64,000 nt of DNA, from positions 434,001 to 498,000 of the forward strand of contig JAPTJF010000001.1 of the NCBI GenBank assembly GCA_029339195.1, written 5' to 3'. A program made the translations under genes and the position numbers. The stretch is from Micractinium sp. NFX-FRZ. Its lineage: Eukaryota; Chlorophyta; Trebouxiophyceae; Chlorellales; Chlorellaceae. The notes below the pieces were generated by a model. The model was not told where the DNA came from. It saw nothing but the letters and a program-made list of their open reading frames with translations, and ran no database searches. Below, in pieces: positions 43,137-62,368 of this stretch (the stretch's first letter is position 1; every line of letters starts with the position of its first letter).

Positions 43137-46100
43137 CTATGCGCTGTAAGGGTCGATGAGCCCCTTCTCCACGCACTTCAAGTGGTGCTCAAAGTGCGTC
43201 TTGATGTAGCCCTTGAGCCGCGCGTGCGTCTGAGGGGCAGGGCAGGCGGAGGGAGGTGCGGGAGTGTTTGAGGAGGCAGGGTGACATTTGCAGGGCGGGT
43301 GACCAGGGGCAGGGCGGCACAGGGCAAGCGGCAAGTGCGGGCAGGCAGTGAGATTGGCCACCCCCACCCACCTCAGCCCACCTCCCACTTGCCCCTCGTG
43401 CCTAAAACCTTGGGCTCCAGTCCAGGCCCCCCCACCCCACACGTCCACCCCCACCTGCCTGGTCTTCGTCCTCTGCAGCTGCGGTAAACTCAAGCTGCCG
43501 TGCACCCGGCGGCCGCTCCGCCATGCCAAACCGGGCCACAATCTGCCCAAAAAGTGAACAGCTGAACAGCCCACTGCTGGAAAAACGGACCCACCTGGTC
43601 CTCATCTTCTGCCATTGCCGTGAACTCGGGTTGCAGCGCGTCGGGCGGGCGCTCCGCCATGCCAAAGCCGGGCGCCCCTTGAAGCTCCTGCAGCTGCTGC
43701 AGCATGGCGGTGCGGATGCGCTCCACCTCCTCCTTCTTGTTCTGGTTGGGCCAGGACTGCAAGGGCAGGGGCACAGGCAATAGAGAGCGAGTCAGCAGCT
43801 GAGCAGTGGTCAAAAACGAGTGAATCAAAACATGTGGTGTGAGGCAGACATGCATGCAAGTGCGCCCAGCCTGCTTTTTCTCCAGCGCAAACAGCACTGT
43901 AAGCATGAAGCCGGCACCCACAACCTGGCTGAACGCACGCGGAGCACAGCGTGAGGCTCACTGGTTTGCGGTTGTAGTTCAGCTTGTACTCTGGGGAGAA
44001 GTATTCCAGGTACATCTGCTGGGGCAGCGCATCCTCGACATCCTGGTCGCACAGCACGGCTGCAGGTGAGGGGAGGCACACGAGCAGAAGGTGTGAGGCA
44101 CATCTGCTGGGGGGACGGCGGTGCCAACATCCTGATTGCACAGCCGGGCAGAGAGAGGAGCTGGCCGCGCAGCAGGGCAGAGAGGGGAGGGAGGGGAAAG
44201 GGGGAGGTGGATAGGCACGGGGGACCCGGGGAAGGAAAGGGGGGGTGAGGTGCATCTGCTGGGGCAGCGCTTCCTCCACCTCTTGATTGCTGCTAAAAGC
44301 ACGGCTGCAGCCAAGGGTGCAACCATAGAAGGAAGGCAGAGGGCAGGGCAGACGAAGGGGGGAAAACCAGGCGGGGACCGGGCCGGGCTGGGAGGAAGGG
44401 GCGGGGGTTGGAGGCAGCGGGGTGAGGTGTGTGCTTGAGGCCACCTGGGGCAGCGCCGGCACATTCTGGCAAGATGTTTGATGTTGAGCCCCGCCTGGCG
44501 CCGCTCCACACCCGGCACAGCGCCTCCGCCATCCCAGGCAAGCAACCAGCCCCGTGATTGTGTGGTGCCCCAAAACATGCCCTGCTGGTTCGTGCCAGCC
44601 AGTCTGCCAGGCGCACCTGTTTCTAGCGTCCATGCCCGCGCCACTGTGGTCTTGGTGTAGCCGCCGCCGCCCAGCACCTGGGCGGGGAAGAGCGGCAGAG
44701 TACGGGAGCAAATGGGGGCCAGGATCAGCAGCACAACGCGGCGGGAAAAAAAGCTGGAAAGGATGAGGGCCAGGCAGAGGCAGCCAACGGGCAGCCATTG
44801 AGCGCGCATGGCAGCAACGGAGGCGCAGGCAGATAAGGCAGGTCGCAATGTGACAGGCAGGCGCTGTTGTTGTGGCCTCAAGCTTGACCACGGTAAGACG
44901 GGTTTGCCCGCTGACAGCCCCCCTTGCTCACTCACCAGCATGGGCAGGCCAAACGACTTGACAAAGCGCACAGCCTCTGCGTGCCCCTCCAGCGTCAGGC
45001 TGAACATGCCCAGCCGGTCGCCCACCAGCGAGTCCGCGCCTGCATCATTAAATAAGCAGCATGATGAGTACTCTTATGTAACGCAGCAGGGGCGGGGCTG
45101 GGGCCACGGTGCACGGGCGCAGCGCTGTACGCTGCACTGCTGTTGCCCTTGCCGGTGGCAGCCATCCCCTAGCACTTGCAGGGTCCCAGCTGTGGCAGGC
45201 TGGCCCCTCCCGCCGGCGGGCGCTCACCGCACTGCAGCACCACCGCTCCCGGCTGGAACACCTCCATCACTTTGCTGCACGGGGAGACAAAGAACAGACC
45301 AACACGTGAAAGTGAAGTATGCAATGAATGCAGTGTGCCAGCAAGCAAGCTGACCTGCACAATTGTTGGTGGGCTAGAAGAGTTCAGGCACTGCACAGGC
45401 GCAGCCCCAGCTTGTGAATGCAACGACCTGTCGGCAAGCGAGCGAGCCACCTGTCCCCACCTGATGGATGGTGGGCTTGAAGGGCCAGGCCCGTCACAGT
45501 GTGCAAAGTTGCACCTTGGCAATGCAGCTTTATGCCAGCACATAACCAACAACCCCACCTGATGATGGGCTTGAAGAGGCCCAGGTACTGCTCATTGTCT
45601 ATGCCCTGCACCAGAGGCACGTTCAGGCTGTACCCCTTGCCCTGCACACAACAGCGGGCACAGCAGGCACGTCAGGCATCATGCCCTGCACGGCTGACGG
45701 GTACGAGGAGCGCAGCGGCGCTGCACGGCCATTGCCTGCAAACATGCTTGGCAAGTGTCCAGGCAGCATTTGCACTTCGCCCTGCCTGCACACCGTTCAC
45801 CAGGCAACTGCTGTCCCCGTCCCGGCCAGAAGCGCCAGCCAAACATCAACAAACCACATAAACAGCACACACAGCCCGCCGCACCTGGTACTCCCCGACC
45901 TCGTCCAGCGCCCCCGTCCCCGGGAAGAAGGGCTGCCCGCCCCACTCCTGCTTCAGGTGGAAGCTGACCGTCATCACCCTGCAGGGGAGCGGTTGAGTTG
46001 TGGGATGTAAAAACCCCACTGTGAGGCAGTGGGCACGATTTGGGCCAATCATGGCCTGCTAGCGGGCAGCCACGCGCGCTCCTGACCACAGCCGTGCACC

Positions 46101-62000: not shown

Positions 62001-62368
62001 TGCCTGTTGCAGCCGACGCACCGATGCCCGACGCTGCGCCTCCTGCGGAGCAGCAGAGCTCGCCGCCTGCACCAGCAGAGGCAGCTGCTGCTGAGGTCTC
62101 GTTACAACCAGCTGCAGAGGCGGCGCCACCACCGGCGGCGCTTCCCTCCGAGCCAACGATCGGCGCCACCGCTGAAGTGCAGCCAGCTGTGGCATCTGCT
62201 GAGGCAGCAGCTGCGCCGGCAGAGGCAGCTGCGCCGGCAGAGCAGCCGGCAGCGGCCCCCGAGGCAGCGCCAGCCAGCGAGCCGGGTGCTCGCCCACCTG
62301 CTACCAGTGAATCAACAGAGCAGCAGCCAGCAGACCAGCCAGCTGCAATGGATGTTGATCCAAGCTGA
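50054..62368 (+). CDS. NCoR/SMRT- and POWERDRESS-like two-SANT corepressor
   Basis: Predicted nuclear scaffold of a histone deacetylase complex, 2,713 residues. Exons: 50054..50083, 50506..50857, 51050..52803, 53129..54054, 54320..54480, 54710..54797, 55025..55109, 55312..55385, 55612..55708, 56140..56214, 56419..56691, 57070..57401, 57594..57652, 57862..58481, 58808..59651, 59866..60279, 60411..62368. Order: RE/RS-rich and Ala/Pro-rich N-terminus; a coiled-coil segment around 670-720 (LIESLDHELAEVQGQLQ); SANT1 at about 1172-1214 (PWTEEERKVFADKFLQHHK, DFPRITTFLPGRTVEEVV); SANT2 at about 1625-1670 (ARFCQAVRLFGRDLK then AISAFLGNKT and RERLGLD); then roughly 1,000 residues of Ala/Pro/Gln-rich, low-complexity tail. 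Two spaced SANT domains after a coiled coil is the NCoR/SMRT and plant POWERDRESS layout. The 10-codon first exon is the least certain part. Confidence 0.85.
55062..55230 (+). repeat. copy of the NCoR-like exon 7 donor end
   Basis: GATTGCCACGCTGCAGGCCA with its following bases (55063..55100) recurs in decayed form at 55191..55230. Confidence 0.7.
56948..57107 (+). repeat. duplicated acceptor of NCoR-like exon 12
   Basis: An acceptor plus RPGR-coding bases occur at 56948..56995 and at 57060..57107 (used), 112 bases apart. Confidence 0.8.
58741..58793 (+). repeat. 12-bp tandem repeat TGATCTCCTCCC, intronic
   Basis: Four perfect units just before the exon 15 acceptor of the NCoR-like gene; they form part of its pyrimidine tract. 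Confidence 0.95.

Follow-up and report, generated by a model that had tools for sequence, protein, structure and literature searches.

A divergent gene pair encoding a predicted HDA9-type histone deacetylase and a two-SANT, NCoR/POWERDRESS-like protein in a unicellular green alga

In the 64,000-base stretch of DNA analysed here (the window), a gene for a class I histone deacetylase (HDAC) and a gene for a protein with two SANT domains lie head to head. Judged by its relatives, the deacetylase belongs to the HDA9 type, and the SANT protein resembles NCoR/SMRT and POWERDRESS (PWR). We consider it probable, at roughly 0.7, that the two genes supply, respectively, the catalytic subunit and the scaffold of a corepressor that is the green-lineage equivalent of HDAC3-NCoR/SMRT and is represented in Arabidopsis by HDA9-PWR. 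On this reading, the DAD/SANT1 region of the SANT protein would bind the deacetylase, and the scaffold would recruit the enzyme to chromatin, where removal of acetyl groups from histone tails would lower transcription. We infer binding, recruitment and repression by the algal pair from homology to the known complexes. The pair places a DAD-type NCoR/PWR-like scaffold beside an HDA9-type enzyme in a unicellular green alga; it fits an old origin of the corepressor in the green lineage and may offer a compact system for testing how such a complex assembles.

Gene models and layout of the pair

Both gene models were built by hand, with the exons joined and translated by a script, and both translate without interruption (Table 1). 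All 30 introns end in AG and 29/30 start with a GT donor; the single GC donor found in the two genes follows HDAC exon 48072-48161. The start codons of the diverging genes are separated by 1228 bases, which confirms the layout given in a preliminary description of this DNA, namely an HDAC gene (-) and a two-SANT gene (+) that diverge with their starts 1.2 kb apart. Support for the HDAC model comes from a Micractinium tetrahymenae protein that was annotated independently, ABPG75_007215 (P0004), which shows 91% identity over 100% of the length and is the closest relative among the best 120 of 7995 matches. The genome around the window amounts to 66.07 Mb in 838 contigs.

Table 1. Coordinates of the gene pair and its features, counted from the first base of the window.
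Feature	Position	Strand	Basis
HDA9-type class I histone deacetylase gene, 15 exons, 437 aa	43137..48825	-	gene model, PF00850, tree
HDAC exon with catalytic Y298; T at the HDAC3 R301 position	44617..44677	-	gene model, residue alignment
HDAC exon with metal ligand D259, also R265	44936..45039	-	gene model, residue alignment
HDAC exon with metal ligands (HDAC3 D170, H172)	46272..46340	-	gene model, residue alignment
HDAC exon with catalytic His-His pair (HDAC3 H134, H135)	47128..47217	-	gene model, residue alignment
HDAC exon 1 with start codon	48780..48825	-	gene model; N terminus agrees with P0004
Example intron copies of exon pieces, HDAC gene	47876-48043, 47297-47353, 46997-47047, 44248-44290, 43453-43535		repeat listing
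Divergent intergenic region, 1228 bases	48826..50053	.	gene models, GC, no Rfam match
Two-SANT NCoR/SMRT- and POWERDRESS-like protein gene, 17 exons, 2713 aa	50054..62368	+	gene model, relatives
N-terminal stretch resembling a coiled coil and interrupted by an intron, possible TBL1/GPS2-binding coil; approximate limits	52679..53161	+	alignment
Conserved helix and pre-SANT part of deacetylase-activation-like domain	55025..55385 (exons 55025-55109, 55312-55385)	+	model, alignment, profile
SANT1	55612..56214 (exons 55612-55708, 56140-56214)	+	model, Pfam, structure-sequence match, profile
SANT2, split by an intron between exons 57862-58481 (its end) and 58808-59651 (its start); approximate limits	58410..58900	+	Pfam Myb_DNA-binding, profile

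The stretch between the genes (48826-50053) has a GC content of 0.575, compared with 0.657 for the whole window, and values equally low occur in 3 of the 628 sliding windows of that size. A scan of 42000-64000 with Rfam at the gathering threshold returned no family, and five neighbouring open frames gave no Pfam match. Proline-rich open frames are found on the + strand downstream of the HDAC gene (39524-42363); the three stretches of them that were scanned have no Pfam matches.

In both genes, exon fragments recur as decayed direct copies in the introns next to them. At E values up to 0.01, such matches occur in 10/60 adjacent exon-intron pairs and in 5/900 non-adjacent ones. The introns thus look as if they had grown by local tandem duplication. 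In the intron after exon 48072-48161, the GC donor together with the exon end recurs three more times, as an array of decaying copies at 47548-48071. We also considered the exon copies in the HDAC introns (47297-47353, 43453-43535 and others) as exons in their own right or as parts of a broken gene, and rejected this in view of the clean model and the relative with 91% identity.

Placement of the deacetylase

The HDAC protein matches PF00850 with an E value of 2.7e-82 over profile positions 1-297 of 298, and all six catalytic and metal-binding residues are intact (H134, H135, D170, H172, D259, and Y298 in HDAC3 numbering). The catalytically complete class I HDAC noted earlier from this DNA is therefore borne out. 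For the tree we used 46 sequences, consisting of 41 of the 120 matches listed (of 7995) and five others. In this tree, the protein falls among Chlorellaceae and inside a set of 26 green rows that a branch with 99/96 support separates from the remaining 20 rows. The green set contains streptophyte proteins of roughly the length of HDA9 and one Scenedesmus protein that its source names HDA9.

Class I-like genes on contigs 74 and 76 of the genome fall on the HDA19/HDAC1 side of the branch; these two paralogues were put together from fragments, and their branches in the tree are long. An HDAC-like locus on contig 221 (46% identity, residues 155-269) and the other PF00850 loci of the genome were left out of it. 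Its position in the tree marks the deacetylase as HDA9-type and sets it apart from HDA19/HDAC1, in agreement with the HDA9-like enzyme of the preliminary description. In the best tree, animal HDAC3 lies on the branch side opposite the green set, but the topology test does not reject a clade uniting the two (p-AU 0.108). The tree, with its 99/96 branch for the green set, therefore establishes the HDA9 type and not orthology to HDAC3.

The two-SANT protein and related complexes

Pfam identifies two Myb/SANT stretches in a 706-aa core of the SANT protein. A search of the genome with the SANT core gave 7 matches, all 7 of them exons of this gene, so that one locus was found. For the pre-SANT helix together with SANT1, the best solved relative is the NCoR2/SMRT domain in the crystal structure with HDAC3 (PDB 4a69), with E values of 5.3e-9 for the single sequence and 7.9e-20 for a profile built from the window protein, two named Chlorellaceae sequences and three others, six in all. 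The 4a69_C match covers profile positions 26-117 and thus includes the pre-SANT helix, whereas CoREST matches start at 68. Assignment of SANT1 to the NCoR/SMRT type is supported by these comparisons. The N-terminal coil can be aligned in six sequences; its match to NCOR2 2l5g is not significant (E 0.54).

The SANT2 profile behaves differently, in that RCOR1 (3.5e-13) comes out ahead of NCoR2 (5.4e-6). The earlier description of a two-SANT NCoR/POWERDRESS-like protein is thus upheld for SANT1 as regards NCoR, but the CoREST-like SANT2 argues against a plain NCoR label. CoREST proteins (RCOR1, RCOR3) likewise have two SANT domains. The SANT2 similarity could place the protein in a CoREST-like or another two-SANT family and give it another deacetylase, or a demethylase, as its partner. 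We regard this as improbable: NCoR2 and NCoR1 both rank ahead of CoREST in the profile comparison of SANT1 with its pre-SANT helix, and, unlike CoREST, the SANT protein shows no ELM2 among the Pfam matches up to E 0.1 in the scanned 706-aa core.

The closest relatives of the SANT protein are ABPG75_007216, with 80% identity in the searched region, and C2E21_8607 of Chlorella sorokiniana, with 73%. None of the 3 and 7 matches of the two SANT protein searches is named as a land-plant protein, so that no named land-plant PWR was reached. The alignment-based search scored the 7994 candidates sharing most words and gave 7 matches; its reach was poor, because P0003, which the other search had found, was not returned, and we suspect that low-complexity words are responsible. 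An NCBIfam scan of five relatives produced a single match, in P0126; the family is unrelated and the score falls short of the curated cut-off. Viral and prokaryote contig collections scanned with the SANT alignment yielded 51 pattern matches each and no relative. The C. sorokiniana model (C2E21_8607, P0002) has about 660 extra C-terminal residues that find no match in this genome and are possibly a fused neighbour in that annotation. Comparison of the C-terminal parts of C2E21_8607 and P0005 with this genome gave nothing and is uninformative for synteny.

Several features of the algal pair recur in the HDAC3-NCoR2/SMRT DAD complex (4a69), which likewise joins a class I deacetylase with its catalytic residues to a DAD-type pre-SANT helix and SANT1. 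As in NCoR2/SMRT, the second SANT domain sits in a long low-complexity protein. In contrast to 4a69, the algal HDAC has T in place of R301 and D in place of G21, and K474 of the DAD aligns with Q; further differences are that the algal SANT2 is closer to CoREST and that the two genes are neighbours. With Arabidopsis HDA9-POWERDRESS(-HOS15) the pair shares an enzyme that is HDA9-type by the tree and a two-SANT scaffold, and it differs from the PWR complex in that the algal scaffold comprises 2713 aa with alanine- and glutamine-rich stretches.

According to PMC5119886, HDA9 and PWR co-purify in Arabidopsis, and PWR is required for HDA9 binding at the tested loci. Its authors liken HDA9-PWR to HDAC3-SMRT/N-CoR, and state that they found no conditions for robust HDA9 activity in vitro. 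HOS15-PWR-HDA9 is described as N-CoR/SMRT-like in PMC5943563 and PMC13261656, of which the former proposes HOS15 as a TBL1-like third member and the latter recently added a GPS2-like protein. A search for the LisH family, aimed at HOS15/TBL1, was empty in the genome and also in 14/14 controls, and is therefore uninformative.

Gene order and the predicted inositol-phosphate interface

The best database relatives of the pair carry consecutive M. tetrahymenae tags, ABPG75_007215 for the HDAC and ABPG75_007216 for the SANT protein, and both entries give a longest contig of 5,888,142 bases. The consecutive tags and the common longest contig indicate that the genes are neighbours in M. tetrahymenae as well. 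The pairing is therefore not unique to this assembly; uniqueness, combined with uncorrelated expression, was what the preliminary description would have counted against its proposal, and one near relative contradicts the uniqueness. Both M. tetrahymenae proteins are named hypothetical proteins, and the scaffold model is shorter than in the window (1920 aa). Protein identities of 91% and 75-80% suggest that the window comes from a species different from, though related to, M. tetrahymenae. For C. sorokiniana, no HDAC was found by name among the best 120 of 7995 matches. No account of an HDAC/two-SANT linkage was found among the open-licence papers that the literature searches listed.

Three points bear on whether this neighbourhood has a regulatory meaning. 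Taking the gene count of M. tetrahymenae (66.4 Mb and 14,229 genes; PMC12516953), a named pair would be adjacent in a random gene order with a probability of about 1.4e-4, which speaks against a mere accident. By our own estimate, however, d partners per protein lead to about d neighbouring partner pairs per genome by chance, so that a single partner pair, singled out once it had been noticed, is poor evidence of selection. In addition, C. sorokiniana strains are reported to be collinear (PMC6606587), as are C. sorokiniana and C. pyrenoidosa, with rearrangements (PMC11005252), and this makes conservation in a near relative the default, expected without selection. The neighbourhood is thus weaker evidence than the gene and family matches.

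Gene order inherited among Micractinium-like Chlorellaceae is the simplest account of the adjacency. We lean towards regarding it as a gene-order accident that near relatives inherited and that carries no regulatory meaning, in which case the two proteins could still form a complex. A distance of 1228 bases between start codons is not notably short, which fits this account; the low GC content of the gap would suit a regulatory region and so points the other way, although other intergenic regions may show low GC too. By convention, a bidirectional promoter is one whose two start sites lie within about 1 kb of each other and whose genes are co-expressed. A head-to-head layout selected as such a promoter, keeping enzyme and scaffold in step, appears doubtful to us. 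The divergent orientation, the 1228-base gap, the adjacency of the genes in M. tetrahymenae and the functional link between the two families in plants and animals agree with it, but the gap separates start codons, and the distance between transcription starts may differ. Adjacency may possibly be useful for matched expression, and co-regulation by the common 1.2 kb is possible. If the adjacency were widely conserved and the genes co-expressed, enzyme and scaffold would share one regulatory region.

For the corepressor counterpart that we favour, the predicted interface between the two proteins deserves attention. We take the inositol-phosphate contacts to be G21, K25, R265, and R301 in HDAC3 and K449, K474, and K475 in SMRT. 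At these positions, K25 and R265 are kept in 26/26 green HDA9-type rows of the tree, whereas R301 is lost in 24/26 and position 21 is N, D or K in 26/26. The other rows of the tree have R301 in 19/20 and G21 in 19/20. In a larger tally of 125 rows (the 120 matches listed and five others), R301 is absent from 50 of the 53 rows with N, D or K at position 21 and present in 55 of the 59 rows with G21 and in 5/5 with S; eight rows are gapped at position 21. Among six scaffold sequences compared by eye, the K474 position is Q in 6/6, K449 is K in 6/6, and the K475 position is R, H or K in 6/6. With changes at both the HDAC R301 and the scaffold K474 position, each partner lacks part of the pocket, which weighs against the counterpart reading.

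According to PMC13384419, inositol tetraphosphate holds HDAC3 and SMRT together. One could combine both lines and propose that the HDA9-PWR pair was kept divergent in Chlorellaceae for matched expression, and that its interface was remodelled in the green lineage with joint partial loss of the inositol-tetraphosphate pocket (R301, K474). Taken as a whole, this proposal seems quite unlikely to us. If it were true, the complex would need inositol phosphate less for its assembly or would use another ligand. The altered contacts raise a testable question, namely how plant-type HDA9 complexes hold together. In the window, the affected contact sites are located at 44617-44677 (HDAC3 R301 position) and 56140-56214 (SMRT K474 position).
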